Part shown: positions 3,348 through 63,780 of the stretch, piece by piece
Layout: every line of letters starts with the position of its first letter
How positions within the stretch are numbered: the first letter of the stretch is position 1
Source of the DNA: an uncultured Candidatus Competibacteraceae bacterium
GTDB taxonomy: Bacteria; Pseudomonadota; Gammaproteobacteria; Competibacterales; Competibacteraceae
DNA: 64,000 nucleotides
Assembly: GCA_903879705.1 (NCBI GenBank)
Contig: CAIRMO010000110.1
Location: forward strand, 1-64,000
Direction of reading: 5' to 3'
Translations under genes and position numbers: made by a program
Notes under the pieces: model-generated
Told to the model about the DNA's origin: nothing
What the model saw: only the letters and a program-made list of their open reading frames with translations
The model's database searches: none

Positions 3348-3354
3348 ATTGGTA

Positions 3355-21607: not shown

Positions 21608-22419
21608 GGTTTCGCCAATGCCCGCGGGCTGAATATGGTCTCATCCAGCGCATACAGCGTATCCAGCAACGCTACCTGCAAGGTTCCTGGCCCCAGCGAC
21701 CGCTCCGCCGCCAGCTCTCCTGCGACGCCAAAGAGCGTCAGTGCCGCTACGGTCGCGGTAAAAGTATCAGGCTCCACCGCTAGAAAGGCCCCAATCACTG
21801 CTGTTGCTGAACAACCGAGCCCAGTGACTCGCGCCATCAGTGGATGCCCGTTATGGATTTCCATAATTTGTAAACCGTCAGTCACATAATCCACCGCGCC
21901 GGTAATCGCAACGACTGCCCCACTATCTATTGCCAAGCGTTGTGCTGCATCCAATGCCGCCGTTGAACCATGCAGGCTATCGACACCTCTGCCCTCTCCC
22001 GCCTGCTGCACTAAGGTTAGAATTTCAGAACCATTGCCACGAATCACCGCCGGTTTTAACCGGACTAGAGCGCCTGCCGCCGTCTGGCGATAAAGTGTTG
22101 CTCCTGCGCCGACCGGATCGAGAATCCACGGTACCCCCACTTCCCCGGCCCGGATTGCCGCCAGCTTGCAAGCCGCAATCCATTCTGAATCCAGTGTTCC
22201 GATGTTCACCACTAACGCCTGACTCATAGCAACGAAGTCTTCCACTTCATCTATGGAATGAATCATCGCCGGTGACGCGCCGATAGCCAGTAACGCATTG
22301 GCGGTATTGTTCATCACCACGAAGTTAGTGATGTTATGAATCAGCGGTGCTTTATCCCGTACTCTCGTGATAAGAGACCACAATAGTTTCACATCGATGA
22401 GCTTGCATTTATCTAACAT
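21595..22419 (-). CDS. thiM: Hydroxyethylthiazole kinase
   Basis: Encodes 274 residues (E. coli ThiM 262). The family motifs are clear: PLIHNITNFVVMNNTANALLA, ILDPVGAGAT, AVIRGNGSEI, the ribokinase-like GAVDYVTDG, and the catalytic stretch VTGLGCSATAVIGAF. It phosphorylates 4-methyl-5-hydroxyethylthiazole in thiamine salvage. It is downstream of malQ in the same direction, 92 bases away, with a hairpin motif between. No other thi genes are nearby, and no TPP riboswitch sequence is seen upstream. Confidence 0.93.
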   Translation of the reverse strand: MLDKCKLIDVKLLWSLITRVRDKAPLIHNITNFVVMNNTANALLAIGASPAMIHSIDEVEDFVAMSQALVVNIGTLDSEWIAACKLAAIRAGEVGVPWILDPVGAGATLYRQTAAGALVRLKPAVIRGNGSEILTLVQQAGEGRGVDSLHGSTAALDAAQRLAIDSGAVVAITGAVDYVTDGLQIMEIHNGHPLMARVTGLGCSATAVIGAFLAVEPDTFTATVAALTLFGVAGELAAERSLGPGTLQVALLDTLYALDETIFSPRALAKPYTS

Positions 22420-22464
22420 ATGATCAATTTTTATCCATGAAAAATATGGATAGCCCAGAAAGAT

Positions 22465-22502
22465 TAAAGGTTCAAATTTCTTTAGCCTTTAACCTTTAGC
22501 CT
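22465..22502 (-). repeat. TTAAAGGTT-family inverted repeat between malQ and thiM
   Basis: TAAAGGTT (22465-22472) and AACCTTTA (22491-22498) pair around an 18-base loop. The 16 bases 22487-22502 are the exact reverse complement of 19491-19506. This is the fourth member of the intergenic motif family. Confidence 0.65.
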
Positions 22503-22511
22503 TTTTAAAAA

Positions 22512-24005: not shown

Positions 24006-24075
24006 GGGTTAGTCAGAGTTTCGAGGTTGAGAAACGAGCAGTTAAAAAATAAGCGGAAGGTATTATCCCGATTTT

Positions 24076-25347: not shown

Positions 25348-25715
25348 GCGTTTACTATCTCTCTTTGCTATGCTTTTTCAAGGTTCGAGGTCTTTTGCCG
25401 GGCGATGTTCGGGTGCGTATCTTGGTCAGGGGGTTTGGCACGAACTGCGAACGGTGGTTGGAAACTCCTCTATAGTAGGTGTAATGCGTTTTTTTACCAC
25501 CGGATTGTTAGTTCTACTTTGTCAGATTACGAGCAACCATTTGATTTATAAAGTTTTATCAATTTTACTCACTTTATGTGAATTTTAGCGAAATCAATAG
25601 GTTGTGTTTCAATCTGACAAAGTAGAATTAGATAGCCCGGGAGAATCAGTCTTTTTGCGACGAGTGATCTTGGTCATCATGAACTTCAGAATCCAGTTTG
25701 TTCCGCCACAGTGCA
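25348..25715. other. Divergent glgC/glgB intergenic region
   Basis: This 368-base gap carries the leaders of both divergent glycogen genes and is far richer in A and T than the coding DNA on either side. Besides the inverted-repeat element at 25512-25627 it contains no convincing open reading frame. Promoters for both genes must lie here, but no -35/-10 pair stands out clearly enough to mark. Confidence 0.6.
25512..25627. mobile_element. Probable MITE (116 bp) with 17-bp terminal inverted repeats
   Basis: TTCTACTTTGTCAGATT (25512-25528) and its exact reverse complement (25611-25627) bound an AT-rich element with no coding capacity. The inverted symmetry continues inwards: CAACCATTTGATT on the left matches AATCAATAGGTTG on the right at 11 of 13 positions. 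TTAG stands on both flanks (25508-25511 and 25628-25631), as a target-site duplication would. No transposase of matching ends is in the window. It could also be read as a long bidirectional terminator or regulatory palindrome. Confidence 0.65.
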
Positions 25716-28648
<2,933 letters not shown>

Positions 28649-41963: not shown

Positions 41964-43130
41964 ATGCCGGAGCCGGTTTATCTCGATTATGCGGCGACGA
42001 CCCCGGTTGACCCGCGAGTCGCCGCCCGGTTGATCCAGTATTTGACGCTGGATGGCGACTTTGGCAATCCCTCCTCTAGCACTCATCCCTATGGCCGAAC
42101 TGCGGCGCAAGCGGTAGAAATCGCCCGCGCCCACGTTGCCGCCCTGCTCCGTGCTGATCCCCGCGAGATGATCTGGACCTCAGGCGCGACCGAGGCCAAC
42201 AATCTGGCCCTGCACGGCGTCATGGCGGTTAACCGCAAACCGCGCCGACACTTCATCACCGCAAAAACCGAGCATAAGGCCGTGCTTGATGTTTGCCGGG
42301 CGTTGGCGCAAGACGGCTGTGCGATCAGCTACCTGGACCCGGAACCGGACGGTCGGATTGCGCCGGATCGACTGGCGGCGGCGCTGCGGCCCGATACTGC
42401 GCTGGTGTCGCTGATGCACGTCAATAACGAAACCGGTGTCATTCAGGATATTGCCGCTTTTGGTGCAATCACGCGCCAGCATGGCGTGTTGCTGCATGTT
42501 GACGCCGCCCAGAGCGCTGGCAAATTGCCCCTCGATATGCAAACCCTGCCGGTGGATCTGCTGAGTCTCAGCGCCCATAAGCTGTACGGCCCCAAAGGCG
42601 TCGGGGCGCTGTATGTTCGGCAATGTCCGGTGCGCGTGCGATTACAACCGTTGCTGTATGGCGGCGGTCAGGAGCGCGGCTTGCGGGCCGGGACCTTGCC
42701 CACTCACCAGATTGTGGCGATGGGCGAGGCGTTCCGGATCGCCGGCGAGGAGATGGTCGCGGAACAGGCGCAGATTCGCGAATGGCGCGACCGGCTGTGG
42801 CGCGGATTGGTTGAATTGGGGGGGGTGGCGTTAAACGGTCATCCCGAACGCCACATTGCCGGCATTCTCAATCTCAGCTTTGCCCGGATTACCGCCGAGG
42901 CGCTGCTGGCGGCGATTCCAGAAATCGCGGTATCCACCGGTTCTGCTTGCACCTCGGTGGGTAACGAACCGTCGCATGTGTTGCGGGCGATGGGTTGCGA
43001 TGAATGGCGGATGCGCGGTGCGGTGCGATTCAGCCTGGGCCGCTTTACCACCGGCGAGGACATTGACGTTGCCGTTGCTACCGTCAGCGCGGCGGTCCGG
43101 CGGTTGCGGGCCTTATCGCCACTTCAGTGA
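41964..43130 (+). CDS. iscS: Cysteine desulfurase, IscS/NifS type
   Basis: Encodes 388 residues (E. coli IscS 404). It begins VYLDYAATTPVDPRV. The PLP lysine is in LSLSAHKLYGPKGVG, and the persulfide cysteine in VSTGSACTSVGNEPSHVLRAMG. It withdraws sulfur from cysteine for Fe-S clusters and tRNA thiolation. The C-terminus stops at RRLRALSPLQ, shorter than E. coli IscS, whose last residues contact IscU. No iscU follows; instead the PPTase gene overlaps its stop codon (GTGA). It may be a NifS-like variant rather than the housekeeping IscS. Confidence 0.9.
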   Translation: MPEPVYLDYAATTPVDPRVAARLIQYLTLDGDFGNPSSSTHPYGRTAAQAVEIARAHVAALLRADPREMIWTSGATEANNLALHGVMAVNRKPRRHFITAKTEHKAVLDVCRALAQDGCAISYLDPEPDGRIAPDRLAAALRPDTALVSLMHVNNETGVIQDIAAFGAITRQHGVLLHVDAAQSAGKLPLDMQTLPVDLLSLSAHKLYGPKGVGALYVRQCPVRVRLQPLLYGGGQERGLRAGTLPTHQIVAMGEAFRIAGEEMVAEQAQIREWRDRLWRGLVELGGVALNGHPERHIAGILNLSFARITAEALLAAIPEIAVSTGSACTSVGNEPSHVLRAMGCDEWRMRGAVRFSLGRFTTGEDIDVAVATVSAAVRRLRALSPLQ

Positions 43131-43864
43131 ATCTTGACCTGCCTCCTCTGCGTCGTTGGCTGATTGAACGCGCCGTCGTGGTTCTCAGCCTGGCGGTTGA
43201 TCCCGTTCTCCCGGCGGAATGGGAGGCGCGGTGTGCCCCCTTGAATCCCGCTGAACGTGAGCGGGCGCAAGCCTTTTACTTTGAATCGGATCGGCACGCT
43301 TATGTGGCGGCGCACGCGCTGCTTCGTCATTCGTTAAGCGCAGTGATTCCGGGTGAACCTGCCGACTGGCGTTTCATGGCCGGCCCGTTCGGTAAACCAC
43401 GACTCATTGATCCGCCGCCAGGATTAGACCTGAGGTTTAACCTTTCCCATTGCCGAAGCCGGGTCGCTGTCGCGTTAGCGCTGCGCGCTGAAGTGGGGGT
43501 GGATGTGGAGGCTCTCGACCGCACGGCCCGGCTTGATCCAGGCATTGCTGACGCCTGCTTTGCCCCGGACGAGGCGGCGACACTGCGGGCTATGGGCGAT
43601 GAAGTCCTCCGGCGCGAGCAGTTCCTGCGGTTGTGGACCTTGAAGGAAGCCTGCATTAAGGCCACCGGTCGCGGCTTGTCACAGCCACTCAATGCGTTCA
43701 GCATCGATCTCGACCGGCTGTCCGTCCGGTCGCCGCAGTTGGCGATGATTCACTGGCGGCTGGCTCAGTGGCAAGTCGGAGAACATCTGGTCGCGGTAGC
43801 GGTGGATTGGCCCTATTTAACACCAGTATGCTTCATTCACCGGTTGCTGGTAAATCGCCATTGA
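43127..43864 (+). CDS. 4'-phosphopantetheinyl transferase, Sfp/Gsp type
   Basis: Encodes 245 residues from a GTG that overlaps the iscS stop. Motifs of the large Sfp group are clear: the phosphate-binding GKPRLIDPPPGLDLRFNLSH, the magnesium-binding VGVDVEALDRTARLD, and the catalytic FLRLWTLKEACIKATGRGL. It transfers the phosphopantetheine arm of CoA to a serine of carrier proteins. It ends 6 bases from the end of the leftward PKS-NRPS operon, so its natural partners are probably the ACP1, ACP2 and PCP domains encoded there. A general housekeeping role is also possible. Confidence 0.92.
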   Translation: MNLDLPPLRRWLIERAVVVLSLAVDPVLPAEWEARCAPLNPAERERAQAFYFESDRHAYVAAHALLRHSLSAVIPGEPADWRFMAGPFGKPRLIDPPPGLDLRFNLSHCRSRVAVALALRAEVGVDVEALDRTARLDPGIADACFAPDEAATLRAMGDEVLRREQFLRLWTLKEACIKATGRGLSQPLNAFSIDLDRLSVRSPQLAMIHWRLAQWQVGEHLVAVAVDWPYLTPVCFIHRLLVNRH

Positions 43865-43870
43865 TGTTTA

Positions 43871-45646
43871 TTAAGGCTTGAGCAGGCCCCTAATAATTTT
43901 GCTCAGATAAGCAATCAGAACCACGGCAAAAAACAAGATGATGATCCAATCACCCTGGTGGAATAATCCTTTAAATCCCATAGCAAAATCATTGAGAAAC
44001 GGGTGGTCGATAATGAGTATATCGGAATGATGGAGCCGGAGAAATATATAGAGAGCAAACAGGGTGGCCAGAATTGAAAGAGTTCGCAACATGCGAAATA
44101 TTGATGCGCCAAAAAGAGCTAATCGCTCGGACTTGCTGGCCAGCGCCAAAAGATTCAACCCCTGCCAGCGCAGCATCGGTCCCAAAATGTTGTTGTATTC
44201 CTCAACTGTCGTCGAAAACTGTTGAATCGCTTGAACTGTTTTAGGGATGACATCGCGTAGTCGATGACGCCGCTGCCCTGCTTCACGGAAATAGATTTGA
44301 AAGAGCTGCATGTGATTGGCTTTAGGCATCAAGAAGCTGAGTGAAGCATCCAGCGTGGCCCAAGTACGGCTGATGCGCATGAAGGCCCAAGTCAGTTGTA
44401 CCTGGTATTTGAACATGATCCGACCAGAATCACTGCCCGCTGACGCCAGCGACCGTTCGTGATAATTCAGACCACGGAGATGGGTGCGCGCTTCCCAATA
44501 ACGGTAGGAGCGAATGAGTTCGGTGCGCAGCGGTTGCATCTGACTGATGGCTGGCGGATTGATCGCCAGGCCCAGCGTGTAATCGGCGGCCTTGGCGTAA
44601 TCGTGTACCGCCAACGCCCGCAAACTGGCGAGGTATTTGTTCAGGAAACCTTTCTCGGATTGACCGATAGTCCCGAAGTCGATCAGAGCGAACCGACTGT
44701 CCCGCAACAGTAAAATATTGCCGGGGTGAAGATCGGCATGAAACAGATTATCCTCAAACAATTGGCGCATGGCCGTCAGAAACAGCCGGCGGCCCACTTT
44801 GCGGGGATTAACGCTGTTCTCACGGCACCATTGGATCAATCGCCCTGGATCGTTCTGTCCCATCTGAATGAAATCCGACATGAGAACGCCGTGGATGTAC
44901 TCGGTAACCAACACGCGACGGGTTGAATAATCGAAGAAGACTCGTGGCGCATAAACACCATGATTTTTTAAAACTTTACGCATCCGTTGGGTATTAGAGG
45001 CTTCATAGCGGAAGTCCAGTTCTTCCTGCACCATCTGCTCCAGTTCCCAATAGGCATCGCTCCAGCGAATATGCGGTGCGACACTGAATGACTCGAGTAT
45101 TCGGATCAGACGTCCGATATTTCGTAAATCCCGCATAAACGAAACCGCGGCATCCGGTCGGCAAATTTTAACCGCTACCTGGAGATGAGGGTCGCGTAGT
45201 ACCGCCAGATGCACCTGGCTGATCGAGGCTGCGGCGATGGGCGCCTCCTGGAAACTTTCGAAGATCAGGCCCAAGTCCTCGCCCAATTCAGCATGAAGGG
45301 TTTGATAAACAAACCGGCTTGGAAAACCCTGCGCCTGATATTGCAGTTTCGACAATTCACGGCAGATTGCTGCGGAAAAAATATCGGTGCGCAACGATAA
45401 AAGTTGCCCGAGCTTGATCCATAAACCGCCTGAATCTTCGAACACGCCGCGTAGACGCACCGCTGACGCATCCTTGTCATAACGACCAATCAATCGGAGC
45501 CACCAGCGGATCGACAGAAAACGGATAAAGCGGCTTAACACGCGCAGCGAGGCAAAGCGCGGTTCAGGCTCCGGCTCTACAATCTCTACCTTTTGGCGCT
45601 CTTCCTGCGGAATCAGCGGGGTCGGGATCCAGTCTTCACTAAGCAT
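43871..45646 (-). CDS. ABC1/AarF/UbiB family atypical kinase-like protein
   Basis: Encodes 591 residues (E. coli UbiB 546). The family motifs are complete: the KxGQ motif in WIKLGQLLSLRTDIF, the alanine-rich loop in PIAAASISQVHLA, the lysine in LQVAVKICRP, the catalytic FHADLHPGNILLL and the metal-binding ALIDFGTIG. Two hydrophobic helices at the C-terminus (about 515-532 and 560-583) suggest membrane anchoring, as in UbiB. Its ATG shares an A with the TGA of the preceding PKS-NRPS gene (TGATG), so it is translationally coupled to it. Relatives act in ubiquinone and lipid metabolism; the role in this operon is unknown. Confidence 0.88.
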   Translation of the reverse strand: MLSEDWIPTPLIPQEERQKVEIVEPEPEPRFASLRVLSRFIRFLSIRWWLRLIGRYDKDASAVRLRGVFEDSGGLWIKLGQLLSLRTDIFSAAICRELSKLQYQAQGFPSRFVYQTLHAELGEDLGLIFESFQEAPIAAASISQVHLAVLRDPHLQVAVKICRPDAAVSFMRDLRNIGRLIRILESFSVAPHIRWSDAYWELEQMVQEELDFRYEASNTQRMRKVLKNHGVYAPRVFFDYSTRRVLVTEYIHGVLMSDFIQMGQNDPGRLIQWCRENSVNPRKVGRRLFLTAMRQLFEDNLFHADLHPGNILLLRDSRFALIDFGTIGQSEKGFLNKYLASLRALAVHDYAKAADYTLGLAINPPAISQMQPLRTELIRSYRYWEARTHLRGLNYHERSLASAGSDSGRIMFKYQVQLTWAFMRISRTWATLDASLSFLMPKANHMQLFQIYFREAGQRRHRLRDVIPKTVQAIQQFSTTVEEYNNILGPMLRWQGLNLLALASKSERLALFGASIFRMLRTLSILATLFALYIFLRLHHSDILIIDHPFLNDFAMGFKGLFHQGDWIIILFFAVVLIAYLSKIIRGLLKP

Positions 45647-48600
45647 CAGAGTCTCTTCATAAGCCGCATAAGGGTTGCGGCCAACTGGTCGATATGCGGC
45701 GGGTTCATCATTTGCAGGTGATCTCCGGAAATCCCGAGTACCCGCACCGGTTGCTCACAGAACGCGCTCCAGCCCAAGGCGGGATCGGCGAGCGACTCAC
45801 CACTTTCGTGGTCATGGAATTCCTCCGGGAAACCGCCGGCACTGCGCACCAGGGTCAGGGGGCCGGCATAGCGTTGCGGCGGATAGTCGGCCATCGCTTT
45901 GAAATTCGCCTTGAATACCCGCAACACGCCATCGACTACTACGCTGCCGGCGATCAACCGCCGTGCCCGGAGTTGTTCCATGACGCGCTCCAGCCGTTCC
46001 CGGGGCGGTCGCTCAGTCAGTGCCGCATAGGGTTCGAGATGCGGCTCATACAAAGCGTAAAGTGCGCGGACGATGGAGTCCAGCGCGATGGCGTCGAGCT
46101 GAAACGCCTCCAGCCGGGAACGCACCACCACGGTATCCAGCAAGACCAGCAGGTTGACCTCCGCGCCAGCCCGCAGTAGTTGCTGGGCCATCTCGAAGGC
46201 GACATAGCCGCCGTAGGAGTGGCCGACCAACTGGTAGGGTCCCTGTGGCTGGGTTCGTAGCACCGAGCGCAGATAATGCGCGGCCTGATCCTCGATCCGC
46301 GCCAACGGCAACCCCCCGTCCAGGCCCGGTGCCTGGAAACTGTACAAGCCTTGCTCAGCGCCGAGCCGCTCGGCCAGCGCGTTCAAATAATAGGGTGCGG
46401 CGATCACTCCCGGCAGGATGAACAGCGGGGTTCCCGACCCGCGCTGGAGCGCCACCTGGGAATCGCCCGCTGGAGCCACCATCGGCGCAGTACGCTCCAC
46501 CATTGCAGCGATATCGGCCACGGTCGGGTTGCGAAAGATCTGCGCCACTTCCAAATCCGCGCCCAGGGCGTGGCGCAGCCGGTTGTAAAGTTGCACGATG
46601 GCTAACGAATCGCCCCCCAGCGCAAAGAAACTATCCTCGCGCCTGACCTGCTCCGCGCCGGTCAATTCCGCGAAGATCGCCGCCACTTTCTTCTCGATCA
46701 CCGTTTCCGGCGCGGTTCCAGCACGGCTGACCGACCGGCCAGCATTCGCTTCCAGAGCGGCGCGATCCACCTTGGCATTGGCCGTCAATGGCAACTCAGG
46801 CAACAGCACCAGCTCGGCGGGAATCAACGCTGCTGGCAATCGTTCGCGCAGGAAAGCGGTGAGCGCCTCAACCGTGAGCGGCAACAAGGCTTCCGGCGCA
46901 CGGGCCAGCAGTACCTCCAGCCCCAGGGCATCGGCGATGCCGCCCTCCACCGTAAAGGCTTCACCCTGCTCAAAACCGGCTTCCGCCAGCGCTTCCAGCC
47001 AGCCCTGACGGGAAAGCAGGGGATGCTGCCGTCGCCGCTGTCGATCCTCGAAGCGGTCGAATCCCTGCTGTAAGCCCATGCTCAGGTCATACCAGGGATG
47101 GAAGCGGGTTTCTTCCACCAGCAGCAATGCGCCGCCGGGGGCCAGCAAGTGCCGGATATGGCGCAGACTTTCGGTGACATCGCGGGTCGCGTGGATCACG
47201 CTGCCGGCCATCGCCAGATCAAAACCATGCGGGGCGAAATCCTGCTCTTCCGGCGATTTCTCCAGATCGAGGAGCGCAAAGCGGACAAAGCTCCGGGCCG
47301 CGAAGACCTGACGACCCGTCTCCAGGAAATAGCGGCTGATGTCGGTGAAGGCGTAATCGGCAGTCTCGGCGGGCAAACGATCCAGCAGCGCCCGGGTGGT
47401 CGTGCCAAGGCCCGCTCCCAGTTCGATGATCCGCAAGCGGGGATGCGTGGTTGCCAGTGCCGCCACGATGTCGGCCAATACCGGCATGGTGAACCGGAAC
47501 AGCGTTTGGTAGATGCCGGGCGTTTCCCGGGCGGTGTAAATTGCTGCCGAGTTCTGGCGGCCGGTCAATAAATCGGGCAGTGCCGTAACTACCCGTTCGA
47601 GCAGGGCGAAATCATCCTGCCCGAAGCCAAACCGATCCATCGCCTGAACCTCGTCAATGGTGGATGTCGATTCGGGCCAAGGTGTCATTCGGCGAAATCC
47701 GTCGCGGGTGGCCTCCAGCCGGCCATGTGCGGCCAGCGCTTCCAAAGCCCGTTGCAGCCAGTGCTGATAGCGCGGCTGAATACCACAGTCCCGCAGCAGT
47801 TCATCAGGACGCCCCGCCCGGCCAGCTTCCCGGAATGCGCCCAGGCGCTGCAAGGCCGAACTGACCGCATCGAGATAGAACCGCTCCAGCCGGTCGCGGA
47901 CTGACGCGAAATCTGCCGTTTCAAAGGCTTGGGCCACCACGCGGGCGCGGGCATGACCGGCGGTCTGCATGGCCGCCCACGGCAGCGGTGGATCAACTGC
48001 TGCGGCATCTGCGACTTCTGGCACCACGAAAGCTGCCAACCGGCGGTCGCCGCGCGCTTCACCCAGCACCATCGCCACCGACTGACGCACCCCCGGATGA
48101 CGATTCAGCGCCGTTTCAATTTCGCCCAGTTCAATTCGATGACCGCCGACCTTAACCTGAAAATCTTCGCGGCCCAGAAATTCGATTTCACCGCCCGGCA
48201 GGTACCGGCCCAAATCGCCGGTGGCGTACAGCCGCTCGCCGGTAGCGGGATGGTGGATGAAGCGGCGTGCGGTTTGATCGGGATCGCGCCAGTAACCCCG
48301 GGCCAAGCCGCTGCCGCCAATGTAGAGTTCGCCACTGACCCAGACGGGACAGGGCTGGAGCCGGTCATTAAGAACCTGGAACGACTGATTCTCCAGCGGC
48401 CAGCCATAGGGAATGCTGCGCCACTGCGGATCGACAGTTTCGAGGGGATGGTGAATCGACCAAATGGCGGCTTCGGTAGCCCCGCCGAGGCTGATGGTCC
48501 GGGCCTGGGGCGCCCATTCCTGAATCCGGGCCGGCAGACTCAGCGGAATCCAGTCGCCGGACAGCAGCACGAGGCGCAGGCCGTCACCCAGCGGTTGGCC

Positions 48601-54600: not shown

Positions 54601-57336
54601 AGAAGGCGTCTTGGCCGCCGGGGCGAGATCCGGCCAGTAGCGCTGATGCTGAAATGGGTAGGTGGGCAATGTGGCCTTGGCGTAACGCCGCTTCCCCTCG
54701 ACCGCCTCCCAGTCAATCCGTGCGCCGGCCACCCACAGCCGGCCCAGACTATCGAGCAATGTGCGTTCATCCGCTCGCCGCAGCGATGGCAGCCAGGTTC
54801 CCGGAACGCCGGAACGCTGGCCAAGAAGGCTCAACATCGGTTCAGGACCGATCTCGATGAACACGGTGCAACCCAGATTAACCAGCGTCCGTAATCCGTC
54901 GGCGAACCGCACCGGATAGCGGGCCTGACGTCGCCAATAAGCGGCGTCGAAGCGCCGGGTCGGTTCAGCGCTGACATTGGCGATGACATCAATTTTCGCC
55001 TCGGCGTGGGGCAACACGGTCGCGGCCCGTTCCAGCGCATCCAGACACGGCTCGATCAAGGGTGAATGGAAAGCGCGGGTTACTGCCAAAGGCCGGCTAT
55101 CGACGCCTTCCGCCGCCAGCGCCGCCGCGACCCGCTCGACCGCTTCGCGCTGGCCGGAGATCACCGTCGCCGCTGGCCCGTTCCCGGCAGCCACCGCGAC
55201 CTGACCCGCGCCGTACTGATCGACCGCCTGATACACGGTATCGGCATCCGCCAGAATCGCCATCATCGCCCCGCCTTCCGGCAGGGCTTGCATCAACCGG
55301 CCCCGTTCCACTGCGAACCGCAAGCCCGCTTCCCGATCGAAAACGCCTGCTACGCAGGCTGCCGCCAGCTCGCCGACGCTATGGCCCAACACCGCACGCG
55401 GTTCCATCCCCCAACTCCGCCACAGATCCGCCAACGCTACTTCCAAGGCAAACAGGGCGGGTTGGGCCAGATCGGTACGGGCCAGCAAGCCCTCATCTTC
55501 GTCGAACAGCACCTCAAGCAACGGGCGCTCCAGTTGATCGCCCATCAGAGCGGCGCAACGATCCAGCGTTTCCCGAATACGCGGCTCAGTTTCATAAAGC
55601 CGGCGACAGGAACGACCGCCCCGTGCGCCTTGACCGGTAAACAGGAACGCAATGCCCGGCGGCTGGCGATCCGCTTGACCGAGCGCGATGCCCGGCGGCG
55701 GTTCGCCAGCCGCAAAGGCCGCCAGTTGGGTACTGGCCTCGGCGGCGCTTTCCGCGACCAGCGCCAGCCGGTGCGCAAAGGCGGTACGGCCCACCCGCGA
55801 GGTATGGCACAGATCCGGCCACGGCTCGGCGCTGTTTTGCAAATGGGCGGCAGTGCGGCCCGCCAATTCGGTCAAGGCTTCGGGTTCGCGGGCCGAGAGG
55901 CAGAACAAATGGGCGGGTCGTTCGTTCCCCTGACCCTCCCCCGCCAGGGGTATGGCGAGCTGCGGCGCTTCCTCCAGCACAATGTGAACATTGGTGCCGC
56001 TGAACCCGAAGGAGCTGACCCCGGCGATGCGGCGGTCATGGATCGGCGTCCAGTCGCGGGTCACGGTCGGGATTTCCACCGGGAAACCGTCCAGCGGGAT
56101 ATGCGGATTCAGCGTGGTGAAATTGCGGTGGATTGGAATGCGCTGGTGGCGCAACGCCTGGACGACCTTAATCAGCGCGGAAACCCCGGCGGCGGCTTCC
56201 AGATGGCCAATATTGGTTTTCACCGAACCGACCACCAGCGGTTCATGCGCCGGGCGGCCCGCGGCGAACACCTCAGCCAGCGCCTGCATTTCGATGGGAT
56301 CGCCGAGCGTGGTGCCGGTGCCGTGCGCTTCGACATAGGACACCGCGCCCGGCTCCAGACCCGCATCTTCCAGCGCTTTGCGAATGACGGCGGCCTGGGC
56401 GCGGCCATTGGGCGCGGTCAGCCCGGAGGATCGGCCATCCTGGTTAATCGCGCTGCCGCGAAGCACCGCCAGCACCCGGTCACCGTCAGCCTGAGCATCG
56501 GTCAGCCGTTTCAGCACCAGAACGCCGCAACCTTCGCCACGCGCATAACCGTCCGCTGCGGCATCGAAGGTCTTGCAACGGCCATCGGGAGACAGCATCC
56601 GGCCCTGACAGAAATTGATGGTGATTTCCGGCGACAGCATCAGGTTGACGCCAGCCACCAACGCCATCGTGCATTCCCGTTGCCGCAGAGCGCGCACCGC
56701 CAGGTGAGTGGCGACCATCGACGAGGAACAGGCGGTATCGATCGCCATGCACGGCCCCTGAAAGCCGAAGGTGTAGGAAATGCGCCCGGAAGCGACGCTG
56801 GCCGAATTCCCCGCGCCCGCCTGGGCATTGTTTGATGACGATTGCGCCGATTGACTGAGAACTTGCCCATAGTCATTGGTGCTGATGCCGAGGAAAACGC
56901 CGGTGTCACTGCCCACCAACCGGTCGGGAACCCGCCCGGCATCTTCCAGCGCCTGCCAGACCGTTTCCAGCAACAACCGTTGTTGCGGATCGATCCCGAC
57001 GGCTTCGCGGGGCGCGATGTGAAAGAATTGCGGATCGAACTGATCCACGCCGCCGACAAACCCGCCGCGCCGGGTGTACATCTTGCCGGGAACGCCCGGT
57101 TGCGGATCGTAGTAGCGGTCTACCTCCCAGCGGTCGGCAGGAATCTCCATCGTTCCGTCGCCCCCGGCTTCCAGCAATCGCCAAAACGCCTCAGCGTTTT
57201 CACCGCCCGGCAGTTTGCAGGCCAGACCGATGACGGCGATGGGTTGGCGAGCGGCGGATTCCAGGGTATCCACCCGCTGGCGCAGGCGTTTGATCGCCAG
57301 GGTTGCTTTCTGCAGCGGGGTCAGCGAGTCGGTCAC
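45646..57336 (-). CDS. Hybrid polyketide synthase / nonribosomal peptide synthetase, KS-AT-DH-MT-KR-ACP-Cy-A(MT)-PCP-TE
   Basis: Encodes about 3896 residues. Approximate domains: docking coil 1-30; KS 32-455 (DTACSSS, EAHGTGT, KTNIGH); AT 565-895 (GHSVGE, RAFHS, so malonyl-CoA); DH 925-1200 (HRVYGLPVFP, HPALLDAALQ); C-methyltransferase 1300-1600 (LEMGAGTGG); KR 1820-2050 (TGGLGGLG, LDD); ACP near 2144 (GFDSL); heterocyclisation domain 2215-2650 with DLLVLD, the DxxxxD motif; adenylation domain 2690-3530 interrupted by a second methyltransferase-like domain (ELGAGLGTT near 3306); PCP serine near 3575 (GGDSL); thioesterase with GHSYGG near 3707. The A-domain pocket appears to read D-L-Y-N-L-S-x-I-W, the cysteine code. 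The GTG at 57336 with AAGGA is preferred over a TTG at 57402. Confidence 0.93.
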   Translation of the reverse strand: MTDSLTPLQKATLAIKRLRQRVDTLESAARQPIAVIGLACKLPGGENAEAFWRLLEAGGDGTMEIPADRWEVDRYYDPQPGVPGKMYTRRGGFVGGVDQFDPQFFHIAPREAVGIDPQQRLLLETVWQALEDAGRVPDRLVGSDTGVFLGISTNDYGQVLSQSAQSSSNNAQAGAGNSASVASGRISYTFGFQGPCMAIDTACSSSMVATHLAVRALRQRECTMALVAGVNLMLSPEITINFCQGRMLSPDGRCKTFDAAADGYARGEGCGVLVLKRLTDAQADGDRVLAVLRGSAINQDGRSSGLTAPNGRAQAAVIRKALEDAGLEPGAVSYVEAHGTGTTLGDPIEMQALAEVFAAGRPAHEPLVVGSVKTNIGHLEAAAGVSALIKVVQALRHQRIPIHRNFTTLNPHIPLDGFPVEIPTVTRDWTPIHDRRIAGVSSFGFSGTNVHIVLEEAPQLAIPLAGEGQGNERPAHLFCLSAREPEALTELAGRTAAHLQNSAEPWPDLCHTSRVGRTAFAHRLALVAESAAEASTQLAAFAAGEPPPGIALGQADRQPPGIAFLFTGQGARGGRSCRRLYETEPRIRETLDRCAALMGDQLERPLLEVLFDEDEGLLARTDLAQPALFALEVALADLWRSWGMEPRAVLGHSVGELAAACVAGVFDREAGLRFAVERGRLMQALPEGGAMMAILADADTVYQAVDQYGAGQVAVAAGNGPAATVISGQREAVERVAAALAAEGVDSRPLAVTRAFHSPLIEPCLDALERAATVLPHAEAKIDVIANVSAEPTRRFDAAYWRRQARYPVRFADGLRTLVNLGCTVFIEIGPEPMLSLLGQRSGVPGTWLPSLRRADERTLLDSLGRLWVAGARIDWEAVEGKRRYAKATLPTYPFQHQRYWPDLAPAAKTPSPRMGWDGGDEHVLPIHPLLARRLRLPQSAEYRFETWITLDRLPFLNDHRVYGLPVFPAAGFLEMALAAARELLPGTVQIEDVDLLAPLRLDPEAGALTQLLAVPGSDETVTFHIFHCPEDAAPVKQVSGRLRRMAPSLPVAPTDLESLRRQWPEAPAADFYAGFQQRRLDYGPGFRGVTRLWRSTGAALAEIAAPAVLADLGAYQLHPALLDAALQVLAAALPATPEGTAWLPIRIERYRLHRPALKRCWCLARAEADGDTVQGEVTLLDEQGAELARVEGLTLMRVTQARLLNAARRLPSDWLYEIHWPIVPLLEGVPAPDFLPPVDAQIDRLTPLAETLAQEQGLAVYAELEPALNRLSMAYVVTALSALGADFSPGQRFTANGLAEELEIADNHRRLFERLLDMLVEEGVLERDRALWRVTREISPHWPLTQPADAECVALLERFPACATELGLLRRCGAQLAAVLRGEVEALSLLFPTVTASNHPSISKEGNEGNEGGSSASELYGESPYARVVNRLLADAVAAMVARQPAGRVLRVLEMGAGTGGTTQAVLPRLIPDAAEYVFTDVSSYFTTQAATTFALFPFMTFRTLDVEQEPATQGFALARYDLILAANVLHATRDLRQSLSHILSLLAPGGQLLLLESTARRRWVDLVFGLTEGWWRFTDTDLRPHHPLLDRQGWLDVVPTSGFAQAAALPGGELILAEAPAAAVTDQGHWLLLTDRGGVGQALADRLETHGAHCRLIAAEDDPTLDEALASRHWRGVVHLRALDAPVPEPETGSRLVEQRRLCGSALRLAQGLLDRPDPARLWLVTQGIVQPETGSPLTVASASLWGLGRTIALEHPELRCTRIDLNAATSQVDALFAELWAGSGEDQIALSPAGRRVARLQRRAAMDQPAAAPEIRPDATYLITGGLGGLGLAVADWLVTQGARTLALVGRNAPDETARQAITRMEQAGARVWIQQTDVADGAAMEALFAELHRDWPPLAGVIHAAGVLDDAALRDQDWAHFERVMAAKIDGAWHLHRLTLTPNPSPSPQGRGEGTLDFFVLFASMAGVLGSAGQANHAAASAWLDALAHARRAQGQPAISLDWGVWQDIGAAARRGVERQMRRVGIGAMTPEQGLAIFAWALAEQSAQVVVLPEVNWPQLLARFPEAARPPFFADLMQPAATESTTVAESTPVVAADLPTRLRQVSAAEQLTLLQMFLAARVAEVIGLSRPPKLETPLPELGFDSLMAVELKNRVKTALGIELPVRVILEGASVGQLADLLRAGLDLAAPAVAPAESLQPDPAHRYEPFPLTDIQHAYWVGRGPGMELGGIGCHLYTEVEGNDLPLERLQDSWRRLVARHDMLRAVVAGDGQQRILDRVPPYLIPVLDLHDLSDQEREAQLTRLREERSHHVFDATQWPLFDIRATRLDAHRTRLHLGFDLLVLDAASIFQLREEWVRLAADPDLQWPLLELSFRDIVLAEMAQRDSASYRQAERYWLERLADLPGGPELPLRRDPASLTRPHFVRRLHRLEQADWSVLRARAQRLGLTPSGLLCAAYADVLAAWSRHARFCITLTLFNRPALHPQIMQIIGDFTSTLLLEVDASAPGFADRAKTLQKQLAADLDHGAFNGVQVLREQARRQRGRVSAVPVVFTSALGLDARKPGNSAWESLGEMVYSVAQTPQVLIDHQVSEQDGGLLFTWDVVEEVFPPGLVGRMFDAYCGLLRELARDEAAWSSPIAHWLPAVELADRQQANQTVAPIPEGLLHSPFIAQALAHGDREAVVDGDRRLSYAEVLVRAGGVAVALQQRGARPGELVAVVMPKGWRQIVAVLGILAAGAAYLPIDAALPEERRRYLLAHGEVRIALTDPALNLDWPDGVEALIVDDLPPAALPASRATPDDLAYVIYTSGSTGQPKGVMMEHRAVLNTVLDINRRFGVNAEDRVLALSSLSFDLSVYDVFGILGAGGTLIFPGADAARDPQRWQSLIRAEGVTLWNTVPALMAMLCEYGQPLGDGLRLVLLSGDWIPLSLPARIQEWAPQARTISLGGATEAAIWSIHHPLETVDPQWRSIPYGWPLENQSFQVLNDRLQPCPVWVSGELYIGGSGLARGYWRDPDQTARRFIHHPATGERLYATGDLGRYLPGGEIEFLGREDFQVKVGGHRIELGEIETALNRHPGVRQSVAMVLGEARGDRRLAAFVVPEVADAAAVDPPLPWAAMQTAGHARARVVAQAFETADFASVRDRLERFYLDAVSSALQRLGAFREAGRAGRPDELLRDCGIQPRYQHWLQRALEALAAHGRLEATRDGFRRMTPWPESTSTIDEVQAMDRFGFGQDDFALLERVVTALPDLLTGRQNSAAIYTARETPGIYQTLFRFTMPVLADIVAALATTHPRLRIIELGAGLGTTTRALLDRLPAETADYAFTDISRYFLETGRQVFAARSFVRFALLDLEKSPEEQDFAPHGFDLAMAGSVIHATRDVTESLRHIRHLLAPGGALLLVEETRFHPWYDLSMGLQQGFDRFEDRQRRRQHPLLSRQGWLEALAEAGFEQGEAFTVEGGIADALGLEVLLARAPEALLPLTVEALTAFLRERLPAALIPAELVLLPELPLTANAKVDRAALEANAGRSVSRAGTAPETVIEKKVAAIFAELTGAEQVRREDSFFALGGDSLAIVQLYNRLRHALGADLEVAQIFRNPTVADIAAMVERTAPMVAPAGDSQVALQRGSGTPLFILPGVIAAPYYLNALAERLGAEQGLYSFQAPGLDGGLPLARIEDQAAHYLRSVLRTQPQGPYQLVGHSYGGYVAFEMAQQLLRAGAEVNLLVLLDTVVVRSRLEAFQLDAIALDSIVRALYALYEPHLEPYAALTERPPRERLERVMEQLRARRLIAGSVVVDGVLRVFKANFKAMADYPPQRYAGPLTLVRSAGGFPEEFHDHESGESLADPALGWSAFCEQPVRVLGISGDHLQMMNPPHIDQLAATLMRLMKRL
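51464..51509 (-). repeat. In-frame palindromic repeat inside the KR domain of the PKS-NRPS
   Basis: Read on the coding strand, the element starts CCCTCACCCCCAACCCC and closes with CTCTCCCC/GGGCGAGGGGAGGG. It encodes LTPNPSPSPQGRGEG between GAWHLHR and LDFFVLFAS, where related KR domains have only a few residues. The same repeat type occurs in the other PKS gene at 62351-62388. Confidence 0.85.
53096..53140 (-). repeat. In-frame palindromic repeat near the methyltransferase domain of the PKS-NRPS
   Basis: CCCCTCC (53116-53122) and GGAGGGG (53131-53137) form a hairpin, followed on the coding strand by two tandem G-G-A-A-[CT]-G-A-G-G-G-type units. The encoded peptide is NHPSISKEGNEGNEGG, low in complexity and unlike its surroundings. 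It differs from the LTPNPSP repeat, so at least two repeat families have entered this gene. Confidence 0.75.
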
Positions 57337-57405
57337 GGTCGGGAATCCTTGAGGGAGACAGGAAATGGAGAGATTAGGAGATGGGCCGCGGGAAGTCGCC
57401 AATCC

Positions 57406-60400
57406 CTAGATCAAGGTGGAGAGTTCGTCATCGATCAACGCTTCTAGATCGGCCTCGGATAATGCCGCGATTTCCGCCCGCAGAGCGTCTTCAGCCGTCG
57501 AACGGGCGGCAACCGGCGCGTCGGCCAGGTCAAGCACTTCGTCCAGCAGATGTCCGGTCAAGGCCGTAATACTGGGATAGTTGAATAGCAGGGTGGCCGG
57601 CAACTTGCCGCCGGTCGCTGCGCCCAGTCGGGTACGCAGCTCCAGCGCCAGCAGCGAATCCAGCCCCCGTTCACTCAGCGGTTGATCCGGGTCAATGCGC
57701 TCCGGGTCGGCGCTACCGAGAACGGCGGCGGCTTCGGTTTGCAACAAGGCGATCAACCGGGTTCGGCGCTGTTCCGGGGTAAGTGCTGCGAGTTGGGAAC
57801 GGAGATCGACCACGGGAGGCACAGCTTCCGGGGAACGCTGCACGGGTGAGGATTTAACGGCGGGGACGCGAACCCGCCGCTCAAAAAACGGCGGGATATT
57901 TTTGCCATAGCCGGCGAGGAAGATCGGCCAATCCACCGGAATGACTCCGATCTGCGCCCGGTCGCTTTGCAAAGCGCGGTTCAACGCCTCCAGCCCGACG
58001 GCGGGCAGGATCGGCCTGGCACCGGAGGCCTGGAGGCGTTCCGCATAAGCGCCATCTACCACCGCGCCAATTTCGCCCCACGCGCCCCAATTGAGGCTCA
58101 GGCCGGGCCATCCGCTCGCCCGGCGGGTCTGAGCCAGCGCGTCCAGAACGGCGTTGGCGGCGGCATGATTGGCCTGACCGCGATTGCCGATCAAGGCCGC
58201 CGAGGTGGAAAACAGCACGAAATAATCCAGCCGCCGGTCGCGGGTCAGAACGTCGAGATTCCGTGCGCCTTCGACCTTGGCGGCCAACACGCTGACGAAA
58301 CGCTCCCAGTCCTGCTGGAGCAGTGCGCCGTCGGCTACGCCGCCCGCCAGGTGGAAGACGCCCCGCAGTGGCGGTCCTTGACGATCCAGTTCCGTGAAGA
58401 CCCGGGTCATCGCCGCCCGGTCTGCCACATCGGCAACCTGAAGTCGGACGTGCGGCCCCAGGGCGTGCAGGCGTTCAGCGAGCGCGAGTGGCGGCGGGCG
58501 ATGACCGATGAGGATTAGCGCACCGGCACTCCGCCCGATCAGCCATTCCGCCAGTAGCGGCCCGAGTCCGCCGAAGGCGCCGGTGATTAGATAACTCCCT
58601 TGCGGATCAAGAGCCGGAGGTTCAACAGCCGGCAGTAGCACGGGCGACAGGCGGCTGGCATAGCGTTGGCCACCACGCCACGCGGTTTCGGCTTCGACGT
58701 CATCCGCCAGCAGTTCGCACATCAGTTCAGCGGCAGGATTTTCTGCGGCGGGGTCCAAATCGACCCGGCGACAGCGCAGTTCGGGATGTTCCAGCGCCGC
58801 GACCTTGCCCAGCCCCCACAACAGCGCGCCGTCCGGCTGGGTGATCACGCCAGCGACGCTCTGTGCGCCCTGAGTGACCAGCCACAGTCGTTCCCGTCCG
58901 GCAGCGGCCATCGCGCGAATCAGATCGAATGCCTGATGCAGCGCGGTCTGGCCCGTAGCGCCCACCCCGCCGGTGTAAACCACACGGGCAGGCGCGGTTT
59001 CAGTCATTAAAGGTATGGCTTCGGCAGCAGACAGGACCTGACCGACGCCACCGCGACTTTGCAGGGCGCGAGCCAGTTCTTCAGCCAATCGCCGGGCAGG
59101 ACCGTCGCTGCCATCGTGAACGAGGCACACCGGCGTTTTCTCACCGGCGCGGGCCAGAATCAGCGATTGCCGCGCTTCCCGGTCAACTCCGACTGCAACC
59201 GTGGCGGCAAAGCCCTGTTCAGTCAGCAGCAAACGCCAGGTCTCCGCCGGCAACAGCGGGTGGCGAGGACGCAGATCGGTGTCGGTGAAGCGCCACCAGC
59301 CTTCGGTCAAACCGAATACCAGATCCCACCAGCGTTGTGCGGCGGTGCTTTCCACCAGTGCCAGTAAGCCGCCGGGTGCCAGCAGGGCGTGCAGATGAGC
59401 CAGCGAACGGCGCAGGTCAGCAGTCGCGTGAACGATGTTGGCGGCAATCACAATGTCAAAACTGCCGGGCGTGAAGCCCTGAGTTGCCAGCGGTTGTTCC
59501 AGATCGAATCGGGTGAATTCGATCCCCTGCTGTTCGCTGAAAGTGCGTTGTGCCGAGGTGAGGAACGCGGGCGCAATATCGGTGAACTGGTAATGGGAAC
59601 CCTCCCGGCCTTGTAGCAGTGGCAGCAAGGCGGCAGTGGTCGCGCCGGTTCCTGCGCCCACTTCCAGAATGCGCACGGGACCTGGGCCACGCCGTTGCAG
59701 CGCTGTCGCAATGGCGGCAGCCGTCATGGCGTTGGCCGCCAAGGCCAGCCCGGAGTCGCTATAGATATTGTCGCCAGGGGTAAACAGCAACTGCAGCGGA
59801 TCAACGTGCCCGGTCAGGACGCCCGCCAACCCGCCGCCACAACGGGCCACGAGATCGATTTCCAGGGCATTCGCCGGGTAGCGGGCGCGCAACGCTTCCG
59901 CCAGCGCTTCACCGCCGATCAGCACCGCTTCCGCATCAAGGGCGGCCATTTCGGCGACGCGGTGGAACAGCCGCCGCCGGGATTCAGCGATGCCGCACTC
60001 AGCCGCGTCTGCGTTGCTCTCCGGTTCCAGACCGAAGGTGCGTAGAGCGTCGGCCGCGAAAGCGGTCGCCAATTGTTCCAGCGCGTCTGCCAATCCCTGA
60101 TCGTCCGGCAATATGAACTCCAGCGCCTGCGCCGCAGCGGCCAGCGGCGCGGGATCGGCCCAGTCAGGATCGGGCAGGGGAGCCGGAATCCAGTCCAGTT
60201 CCAGAAAAGCATCGGCCAGCGGATCCGCCGGCGCGGGCGCGGCGACCCGCTTGATTTGCAGACCCTCAACCACCATGAACACCTGACCCGCCGCATCCAG
60301 CAACCGGAAATGGCCGACCGCAACTTCAGCGCTGGCCGGGCCACTGCTGGTCGTGACATGGCACCAGAACCGGTCCGGGGGACTGCGCCAAAATCGAATC

Positions 60401-63400
60401 CGGTCAATGGACAGTGGTAAAAAACCGCCCGAAGCGCCTTCACCGCTGAAGGTCGCGCCCAGGGTTTGGAAGCAGGCGTCGAGCAGCGCCGGATGAATCG
60501 GCAGGCCGGCGGTATCGCCCAGCGTCTCCGGTCGGCGAATTTCCGCCAAGGCTTCGCCCGCGCCGCGCCATAGCGCCTGAATGCCCTGGAACGCCGGGCC
60601 GAGCCGGATACCGCGTTCCGCCAGCAGGACGAACAACAGTTCGGGACCCGTTTCATCCCGCGTCAACCGGGTACGCAACGCCTCCAGATTTTCAGCGCTG
60701 GGCGGATTGCCCTGCTCAGTAGCGACATGCCCGGTGGCGTGGCGAACCCACTGCTGGCCCTCGCGCTGGCTGTGGATAGCAAAATCTCCTGACGGCTCCA
60801 GAATGAATTGCACCCGAACGCCCTCAGGGGGCACGGTCAGGGCCTGGGCGAATACCACATCGTCCACGGCCGGCGATGGGATAGCGGCGACTTGCGCTGC
60901 AATCAGCGCCAATACGGTGTGCATCGCGCCGGGAACCACCACTTCGCCAAATACGACATGATCAGCCAGAAACGGCAGCGTCGTGGTCGTCATCCAGGTT
61001 TCAAACAGGCGTTGCGGCAACGGCGTAGCGAGCTGCTGGCCCATCAGGGGATGAATCGGCTCGCCTCGCCCCTGCGGGAAACGGGGTTGAGCGGTGGATT
61101 CGGAAGTCGCCGGCCAGAACCGGTCGCGGCGAAACGGATAGAGCGGCGCTTCAACCCGCCGCCAGCCCGGCCCCCAGTAAGCCTTCCAGTCCACGGGAAC
61201 GCCGGCGGTGTACAGCCGGGCCAGCGCCTCGGTCAGGGCGCGGCGAGGTTCAGCGTCCTGCCGCAGCGCCGCAATAAATTCAGCGCCTTCTACGATCTCG
61301 CGGCCTAAAGCCGAAAGGATCGGTCGCGGTCCGACCTCCAGAAATACCGTGCAGCCCCGCTCGACCAGTGCCCGCAATCCTTCGGCGAAGGCCACGGGTT
61401 CCCGCGCTTGCCGCCGCCAGTAACCGGCATCGAAGCGGTGAATCAGGGTTCCGCCCACGTTGGAAGCCAGTGGCAACCGGGCCGGATGCCAAACCACCGC
61501 CGCTGCCGCCTGTTCCAGCGCGTCGAGGCAGGGGTCGAGAATCGGGGAATGAAACGCGGTCGCCACGTCCAGCCGGCGATACGGGATACCTGCTTTTTCC
61601 AGTGCAGCCAAGGCGCGGGTCAGTGCCGCGGTATCGCCGGACACCCCGGTATTGGCCGGGCCGTTGCGGGCGGCGATCACTGCGCCACTGCCCGCTATCG
61701 CTTTGGCCACCGCTGCCGGTGAGGCAAAAGCCGCAGCCATGCCGCCCTGACCGGCGGTGGTCGCCATCAAGCGGCCCCGTTCGGCGATAAAGGTTAAACC
61801 TTCCTCCAGCGACATCGCCCCGGCAAAACAGGCCGCCGCCACTTCGCCCACGCTGTGACCGAGGACGGCCACCGGCTCCACGCCCCAACTGCGCCACAAT
61901 TCCGCAATGGCATATTCCAGCGCGAACAGGGCCGGTTGCAGCAGATCGGTGCGATCCAGTGGCGCATCGTCGGCCAACAGCAAATCCGTCAGCGACCGTT
62001 CCAGGCGTCCGGCCAGCGCCGTTTCGCACCGCTCGATGATTTCGCGGAACCGGGGTTCAGCCATCAAGCCCCGCGCCATGCCCGGATACTGGCAACCCTG
62101 GCCCGTAAACAGGAAAGCCACCGCCGGCGGTTGTGCGGTGCGAACCGGCTGAGCCGAGGCCAAGGCGATGCGGGCGCGTTCCGCAGGGTCGGCAACCACG
62201 GCGATCCGGCAAGCGTATTGGGCGCGACCCGCGCTCAGGGTCGCAGCCAGACCTCGCAGATCGGCGTCTGGCGCAGCCAGCGCGGCATCGGTCCGGTGCC
62301 GCAGTTCATCGAGGGCGTCAAGATCACGGGCGGACAGGACGAGAATGCTTCCCTCTCCCCGTGCGGGAGAGGGGTTGGGGGTGAGGGGCGGCGGCGCTTC
62401 CTCCAGCACGACATGGGCATTGGTGCCAGAGAACCCGAACGAACTGACGCCAGCGATCCGTCGTCCGGCGATAGGTGTCCACGGCGTCGCTACCGTCGGA
62501 ATGTGGAACGGAAAACCGTCGGCGGCGATATGCGGATTCAGCGTGTGAAAATGCAAATGCGGGGGCAGGGTCGCGTGACGCAGCGCCAGCGCCACCTTGA
62601 TCAGCCCGGCAATGCCCGCCGCAGCTTCCAGATGACCGATCTGGGTTTTCACCGAACCAACCGCTGGCGGTGCAGCGACTCGTTCTCCGCCGAACACCGT
62701 GGTCAGCGCGCGGGCTTCAATCGGATCGCCGAGCGTGGTGCCGGTGCCGTGCGCCTCGAGGTACGAAATCTGGGCCGGTTCGAGCCTGGCATTGACCAGC
62801 GCAGCGCGGATCACGGCGACCTGAGCGGGGCCGTTGGGCGCGGTCAGACCGTTGGAGCGACCGTCCTGATTCACCGCGCTGCCCCGGATCAGCGCCTCAA
62901 TCCGGTCGCCCGCCGCCAGCGCGTCCGACAAGCGTTTTAGCACCACCACCCCGCAACCTTCGCCTCGCACATAACCATCTGCTGCTGCATCGAAGGTTTT
63001 ACAGCGCCCGTCCGCCGCCATCATCCGCGCCTTGCTAAAACCAATGGTCAATTCCGGGCGCAGGGTCAGATTGACGCCGCCAACCAGGGCCAGGCTGATT
63101 TCACCGGTACGCAACGCCTGACCGGCCAGATGCAGCGCGACCAGCGATGAGGAGCAGGCGGTATCCACCACTATGGCTGGCCCCTGCAAACCCAGGGTAT
63201 AGGCCAATCGTCCCGCGGCCACTGCCGCTGAATTGCCGAGGCTGGCGTGTGCGTCGATCCAGTCGGTATTGCTGCGGTCGCCGAGAATTTCGGCGTAGTC
63301 ATGGGTACTCAAGCCGACATAAACACCGGTAAGGCTACCGGTCAGCCGATCCGGAGCCACGCCAGCATGTTCCAGGGCGTGCCAGGCGACCTCCAGCAGC

Positions 63401-63780
63401 AGACGTTGTTGCGGGTCGATGCTCAACGCCTCACGCGGCGAGATGCCAAAGAAGGTCGGATCAAACCGGTCGACCTCGTCGATCAATCCGCCCCAGCGGG
63501 TATTCATTTTGCCGGGTGCATCCGGGTCGGGATCGTAGAGCGCTTCCAGATCCCAGCGTTCCGGCGGCACTTCGCGGATCGCGTCGCGCCCTTCGACCAG
63601 GGTGCGCCAGAAGGTCGCCAGATCGGGACCGCCCGGCAACCGGCAGGCCATGCCGATCATGGCGATGGGTTCATGCGCCCGGGCTTCGACCGCTTGCAAT
63701 TTCTCCCGCAGGTCCCGCACTGCGCCGAGAGCGCGGCGAAGCTGATAGGCGGCGTCTTGCGTCAATTCAGGATCCGACAT
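57406..63780 (-). CDS. Type I polyketide synthase module, KS-AT-DH-MT-KR-ACP
   Basis: Encodes 2124 residues. Approximate domains: N-terminal docking coil 1-35; KS 40-458 (DTACSSS near 209, EAHGTGT, KTQIGH); AT 555-880 ([15 protein letters not shown] near 644, TAFHS, so malonyl-CoA); DH 905-1190 ([10 protein letters not shown] near 945, [10 protein letters not shown] near 1100); methyltransferase 1200-1520 (LEVGAGTGA near 1370); KR 1730-1960 ([17 protein letters not shown]); ACP near 2042 (GLDSL); and a C-terminal helix ending DELSTLI, likely a docking end for the next synthase. No ER domain. GGAAGGATTAAACC precedes the ATG. The next gene begins 69 bases downstream. The KS has its cysteine, so an upstream acyl donor is expected. 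Confidence 0.94.
62351..62388 (-). repeat. In-frame palindromic repeat at the KS-AT junction of the PKS
   Basis: CTCTCCC and GGGAGAG form a hairpin around CGTGC, followed by GGTTGGGGGTGAGGGG. On the coding strand it encodes [12 protein letters not shown] between the KS end VVLEEAPPP and SILVLSARD. The other PKS gene has a clean VLEEAP junction with unrelated sequence here, so the element is an insertion in this copy. Confidence 0.85.

Follow-up and report, generated by a model that had tools for sequence, protein, structure and literature searches.

What does a compact gene cluster of two megasynthases make, and why does a gene of the UbiB family follow them directly in the genome of a member of the Competibacteraceae? 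The window, i.e., the whole stretch of 64,000 nucleotides that was analysed, represents bases 1-64000 of a contig of 67,690 bases (C110) in a genome of 3.62 Mb and 148 contigs. On its minus strand, PKS1 (57406..63780; 2124 aa; KS-AT-DH-MT-KR-ACP, without a loading module and without an ER domain) precedes PKS-NRPS (45646..57402; 3918 aa from its TTG; KS-AT-DH-MT-KR-ACP-Cy-A[MT]-PCP-TE) and the gene for a PKS-associated UbiB-family protein, a predicted ATPase of 591 aa with all ABC1 motifs (43871..45646). The gene for an Sfp-type PPTase of 245 aa (43127..43864, plus strand) converges on this operon. ORF analysis places these four genes where the initial annotation had located them and also bears out their close coupling, as the UbiB-like gene overlaps the PKS-NRPS stop codon (ATGA) and 6 bases separate the stops of the PPTase and UbiB-like genes. 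The annotated size of about 3896 residues for the second megasynthase agrees with the 3897 aa that result from the likely GTG start at position 57339, which is codon 22 of the TTG ORF and matches the start of the orthologue in Gammaproteobacteria bacterium SJ320 (L004).

Beyond PKS1 lies a fragment similar to an antiporter gene that SJ320 has in intact form, which sets PKS1 as the left (upstream) boundary of the operon. An alpha/beta hydrolase gene and a kinase gene upstream on the contig were ruled out as cluster members, as Mnh-type antiporter genes occupy this place in L004. No further PKS or NRPS gene is present on the rest of the contig, up to base 67,690. At the other flank, an IscS-like cysteine desulfurase gene (41964..43130, plus strand) overlaps the PPTase gene by 4 bases and is a candidate cluster member, with the same order in L004; a gene for an Rrf2-type regulator and the desulfurase gene precede the PPTase gene in the window and in SJ320, and not in HKST-UBA202. 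Elsewhere in the window, the GC content of positions 22001-28000 (0.48-0.50) is below that of the remainder.

The nearest relatives are Competibacteraceae, and close homologues of the cluster are found in SJ320 and in Candidatus Competibacteraceae bacterium HKST-UBA202; the same genes are present there (L004; L005 and L018) with 69-95% identity. The concern that frameshifts or assembly breaks might disrupt the genes can be laid to rest, as the orthologues are unbroken and 87% identical over both megasynthases. All four genes are under purifying selection, with dN/dS values between the window and SJ320 of 0.12 for PKS1, 0.13 for PKS-NRPS, 0.14 for the UbiB-like gene and 0.24 for the PPTase gene; the intact orthologues and the megasynthase values of 0.12-0.13 rule out an artefact. 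The gene cluster is consequently confirmed as genuine and unbroken. The PPTase matches the ACPS domain PF01648 with 68 bits (cut-off 25), and among the 39 genomes searched its orthologues (69-75% identity) are confined to the other two that carry the cluster, with next best matches of at most 44%. The three clusters are not identical in content: HKST-UBA202 carries a gene for a PapA-type acyltransferase between the UbiB-like and PPTase genes (L005 5213-6451), and the SJ320 PKS-NRPS orthologue has an extra C-terminal oxidase domain of the SagB/McbC (nitroreductase) type after its TE (L004 23935-24705), an Ox domain that the window protein does not possess.

The domain content of both megasynthases was derived from Pfam, and active-site motifs were located separately. 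PKS1 consists of a KS (62545..63672; Pfam residues 37-412, DTACSSS), a malonyl-type AT (61288..62115; GHSVG, TAFH), a DH (60226..61053), a C-MT core (59359..59670) and a KR (58075..58599), the last three by Pfam and motif, and an ACP (57547..57744; Pfam), all on the minus strand. On the same strand, the PKS module of PKS-NRPS comprises a KS (56119..57246; Pfam) and, by Pfam and motif, a malonyl-type AT (54817..55647), a DH (53725..54555), a C-MT (52627..53061), a KR (51301..51873) and an ACP with approximate bounds (50782..50925); the NRPS module comprises a Cy domain (49693..50610; DLLVLDAAS at residue 2366, corresponding to DxxxxDxxS), the N part of an A domain (48007..49311), an MT-like domain within the A domain (46978..47985), a PCP (46498..46689; Pfam) and a TE (45670..46428; GHSYGG). 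KS, AT and carrier motifs together with an NRPS module fused into one chain make these proteins a cis-AT modular type I PKS and a hybrid PKS-NRPS.

The initial annotation had credited these proteins with full active-site motifs, and this is correct for the KS (DTACSSS), AT (GHSVGE and AFH), DH (HxxxGxxxxP), MT (GAGxG), carrier protein (D-S-L), Cy (DxxxxDxxS) and TE (GHSYG) domains. It needs a caveat for the two KRs: they contain TGxxGGLG, but His replaces the catalytic Tyr (GQANH) in both. As His occupies this position in 23 of 68 related KRs, we regard it as a common variant. Motif anchoring gives D-L-Y-N-L-S-L-I-W-K as the code of the A domain, an exact cysteine code and the one known from HMWP2/PchE; the Cy motif and this cysteine-specific code are the two sequence marks of a thiazoline module. 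The domains thus back the annotated functions (malonyl loading, C-methylation, KR/DH processing, cysteine activation, cyclisation and TE release) as well as the module order. In plasmid searches with the NRPS half, the matches did not go beyond about 33-52% identity, and the same architecture was not recognised in any of them.

The A domain is interrupted, between its motifs A8 and A10, by a third MT domain that is absent from the initial annotation (residues ~3140-3475 of PKS-NRPS). The best solved relatives of this insert are the megasynthase methyltransferases CurJ (5thy), DisA (6cca), PsoF and AprA MT2; the match to CurJ (E 9.6e-36) extends over residues 22-337 and thereby covers the N-terminal lid and the SAM core. 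Its IHAT and LVEE segments align with LHAT and LYEA of CurJ, and the His and Glu positions and the SAM motif GAGLG are kept. Judged from these features, C-alpha methylation is likelier than epimerisation. The latter is nevertheless a realistic alternative because PchE carries an MT-fold epimerase at the same place of its A domain, in which H1204 is essential and E1234 is the proposed acid/base partner (PMC8807600). If the ring were methylated at C-alpha, this would clash with the SagB-type oxidase that the SJ320 orthologue carries at its C-terminus and that would act on the same ring.

An unlinked gene pair is present in exactly the three cluster-bearing genomes and in none of the others among the 39 family genomes (L167 3403-11960; L168 8933-17478; L169 8202-13348). 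This co-occurrence spans two genera, with two of the three genomes belonging to the same genus, and the loci are not adjacent to the cluster. The pair, which is on G000:C138 in the genome of the window, encodes two proteins. One is a KS-DH-KR-ACP protein that lacks an AT and has a KS sharing 62% identity with the PKS1 KS; the other has the order TubC_N-Cy-A-Ox-PCP, and its code is of the cysteine type. The AT-less state can be read in two genomes, the HKST-UBA202 copy ending at a contig end; the AT seems to have been excised from a module of the cis-AT type. Since PKS1 has no loading module and the two loci co-occur in three genomes, the second locus may supply the PKS1 starter in the form of a thiazole-bearing acyl chain.

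These features call for a revision of the product that had been proposed for the cluster, a chain of two methylated alkene units with a thiazoline carboxylate at its end. The methylated units and the thiazoline have the support of the domains; the third MT and the missing loading module had been overlooked.

The UbiB-like protein belongs to the ABC1 family (PF03109, 195 bits; cut-off 22.9). Its KxGQ, AAAS, VAVK, ELD, HADLHPGN and DFG motifs are all present, and it ends in two hydrophobic TM-like helices. An AlphaFold2 model built from a 4-row alignment was poor, with a pLDDT of 53.5 and a pTM of 0.35. When measured against the curated models of ubiquinone UbiB proteins, it reaches 230 of 487.55 bits (TIGR01982) and 195.7 of 667 bits (NF003404), and other UbiB homologues are encoded in the same genome (G000:C67 and C42). 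These scores, these homologues and the separate branch described below exclude that it is the housekeeping UbiB of ubiquinone synthesis.

The 27 rows of this branch come out as one monophyletic group (SH-aLRT 99, stem 0.89) when 87 proteins are placed in a tree, and a score gap sets them apart, with no member below 249 bits and no other ABC1 protein above 160. Its carriers are Competibacteraceae, Methylococcales, two alphaproteobacterial plasmids, cyanobacteria and planctomycetes. Close relatives were found in 2 of 369 gammaproteobacterial, 6 of 386 cyanobacterial, 3 of 151 Methylococcales-order and 4 of 199 Planctomycetota-phylum genomes, and the lack of a member in 201 genomes of Chloroflexota proves nothing by itself. 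The initial annotation had seen the UbiB gene as a neighbour of PKS genes, which it is, and had not recognised that it represents a distinct PKS-associated lineage.

This lineage associates with PKS genes. Neighbour markers, defined as a KS, AT, A domain or PPTase within about 10 kb, stand beside 13 of 21 branch loci and beside none of the 32 other ABC1 paralogues that the cyanobacterial and Methylococcaceae carriers possess (Fisher 2e-7, or 4e-6 once orthologous loci are merged). When the branch loci are restricted to the same nine genomes, the contrast is 4/9 against 0/32 (p about 0.001, calculated by hand). The branch set is partly biased, as five starting genomes came through PKS-like loci; among the loci reached without this bias, by phylum or order draws and the plasmid search, 9 of 14 have PKS or PPTase neighbours. 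At L130, which the markers do not count, the end of a PKS (KR, ACP) is about 6.5 kb away. Some branch loci (L123, L124, L125 and L188) lack a PKS in the surrounding 10 kb or so. A group 1 glycosyltransferase starting with K-I-(L/V)-L-(V/I)-CTEKLPVP is a recurrent neighbour of the cyanobacterial branch (L077, L123, L125 and L130) and is present also at branch loci where the nearest 10 kb contain no PKS.

In the annotated records of plasmids pOB3b1 of Methylosinus trichosporium OB3b (L226 19893-21767; CQW49_RS21625) and p4 of Azospirillum argentinense (L227 19989-21767), the AarF/UbiB gene is located inside trans-AT PKS clusters that also have PPTase and HMG-CoA-synthase genes. In a planctomycete (L190), a TE-ending PKS is directly followed by two UbiB genes, an order that matches the window. 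Planctomycetes carry such tandem UbiB-branch pairs at L190 5948-9655, L191 8469-12192, L192 8789-12565 and L193 8241-11850. In one copy of L190 and L191, HANLHPDN replaces H(A/G)DLHPGN, which suggests that these pairs might combine an active and an inactive partner. PapA-type acyltransferases are encoded near UbiB in L005 and L130 (L132 and L186 give condensation-type matches that are weaker) and suggest that the products of PapA-adjacent loci are lipid-like. In the mostly open literature on UbiB/AarF/ABC1 proteins and polyketides, the tiancimycin cluster is the single relevant precedent and the branch is described nowhere; we provisionally regard it as undescribed. Each part of the cluster is of a known kind, and the combination of its modules with this UbiB branch appears to be new.

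Taken together, these observations lend themselves to a model in which a complete assembly line for a methylated polyketide-thiazoline is served by a pathway-dedicated membrane ATPase of the UbiB branch; we give this joint reading an even chance. We infer the chemistry, the starter and the function of the UbiB-like protein as follows. PKS1 would extend a starter made elsewhere, possibly by the unlinked AT-less PKS/Cy-A-Ox-PCP locus, and the PKS module of PKS-NRPS would extend the chain again. In each round, malonate would be added, C-methylated, reduced and dehydrated, thereby yielding two 2-methyl-2-enoyl units. The NRPS half would load cysteine and cyclise it to a thiazoline, with the embedded C-MT-like domain acting in C-alpha methylation or representing an epimerase-like relic, and the TE would free the chain. 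The UbiB-like protein, as a dedicated member of a separate COQ8/UbiB branch, could then extract or present the lipophilic released polyketide as a membrane-anchored ATPase, or hold enzymes at the membrane, so that ATP-driven handling would be placed after release or at tailoring. By analogy, such a role as an ATP-driven, membrane-anchored helper for lipophilic polyketides appears most likely to us; it is favoured by the preserved ABC1 motifs and helices, the PapA-type acyltransferases nearby and the COQ8/UbiB precedent. CoQ-like molecules stimulate the ATPase activity of both E. coli UbiB and COQ8 (PMC7263595), and according to one proposal COQ8 pulls hydrophobic precursors of CoQ out of the membrane (PMC8346625; PMC11495197). 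More tentatively, and with odds somewhat against it, gamma- and alphaproteobacteria, cyanobacteria and planctomycetes might all have recruited one distinct UbiB lineage to serve cis- and trans-AT polyketide lines as a dedicated membrane ATPase in a COQ8-like role, with planctomycete tandem pairs in which one copy is sometimes catalytically degenerate.

The two-gene assembly line could also work alone from a small acyl-CoA starter, the second Cys locus making another product, and we consider this only slightly short of an even bet. In none of the three genomes are the two loci linked, the second one has a context of its own, and the PKS1 KS could take a short acyl primer; their exact co-occurrence in 3 of 39 family genomes from two genera, and a PKS1 without any loading domain, argue against such independence. 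A pathway for a yersiniabactin- or pyochelin-like metallophore is considerably less probable. The order ending in Cy-MT-PCP-TE is HMWP1-like and the Cys code identical, but the best match to the salicylate synthase model TIGR03494 in the whole genome is 179 bits against a cut-off of 325, which led us to reject a metallophore of the salicylate type, and neither a reductase nor an aryl loading module is part of the cluster. Siderophore receptor or transporter genes are likewise missing among the cluster genes and their close neighbours, and the cautious stance of the initial annotation, that a metallophore role was not established, was well taken.

For the UbiB-like protein, a function in ubiquinone or general lipid metabolism, with a position beside PKS genes that is due to chance or gene dosage, is highly improbable. 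Its ABC1-family sequence and the branch members located away from any PKS would fit such a function, but the protein falls far below the TIGR01982 cut-off in a genome with the UbiB homologues at C67 and C42, no marker stands beside the 32 paralogues, and adjacency to PKS genes recurs in several bacterial groups. A small-molecule kinase or pathway regulator that phosphorylates an intermediate, the product or a regulator for self-protection or control is the main rival to a handling role, albeit unlikely. The kinase-like motifs are intact, but so are KxGQ and the Ala-rich loop, which limit protein-kinase activity in COQ8, and no gene for a regulator partner is conserved beside UbiB. The tiancimycin enediyne cluster contains two AarF/ABC1/UbiB genes, and the deletion of tnmR3, read by the authors as encoding a proposed sensor kinase, lowered the titre about fivefold and impaired growth only if the product can form (PMC9464397). 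This parallel holds at the level of the ABC1/UbiB family, and as the loss of TnmR3 is harmful only when the product can form, it fits product handling as well.

The assembly line alone would be another orphan hybrid cluster, albeit in a process-critical family of wastewater bacteria with metabolites still to be explored. The UbiB branch provides a repeatable and testable tie between the CoQ and polyketide fields. The reason why CoQ synthesis requires UbiB/COQ8 ATPases is a matter of debate, and a UbiB protein specific to one pathway, encoded beside the PKS clusters of cultivable bacteria, M. trichosporium OB3b and A. argentinense, offers a simple knock-out system. The branch would also give cluster annotation a missing type of accessory gene.

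Among known systems, HMWP1 of yersiniabactin synthesis is built from a malonyl PKS module with MT and KR that feeds a Cy-MT-PCP-TE thiazoline module. The window protein shares this module order, and the resemblance pointed out in the initial annotation is even closer than claimed, as a C-MT-like domain is present in the NRPS module as well. The window protein differs from HMWP1 in an added DH and an A domain around the second MT; an extra KS-AT-DH-MT-KR-ACP protein precedes it, and the salicylate, receptor and reductase genes of yersiniabactin are missing from its cluster. Thiazoline oxidase domains of the SagB/McbC type are those of the epothilone and bleomycin systems; such nitroreductase-fold Ox domains are encoded by the second locus and end the SJ320 orthologue, in contrast to the window protein. 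PchE likewise has a cysteine-specific Cy-A with an MT-fold insert, situated between A8 and A9, but this insert is an epimerase, whereas that of the window protein is closest to the C-methyltransferases CurJ and DisA and keeps its SAM motif (PMC8807600). The tiancimycin genes for TnmR2 and TnmR3 are ABC1/UbiB-family genes in a PKS cluster, as here, and TnmR3 influences production; their cluster is an actinobacterial enediyne cluster and they were read as regulators, so that we liken them at the family level (PMC9464397). COQ8/ADCK3 and bacterial UbiB proteins share with the window protein the ABC1 motifs, a similar length and C-terminal TM-like helices, whereas the window branch stands apart with its GG(L/F)W(I/V)K-GQ and EDNLFH(A/G)D motifs, its scores below the UbiB cut-offs and its place beside PKS genes.
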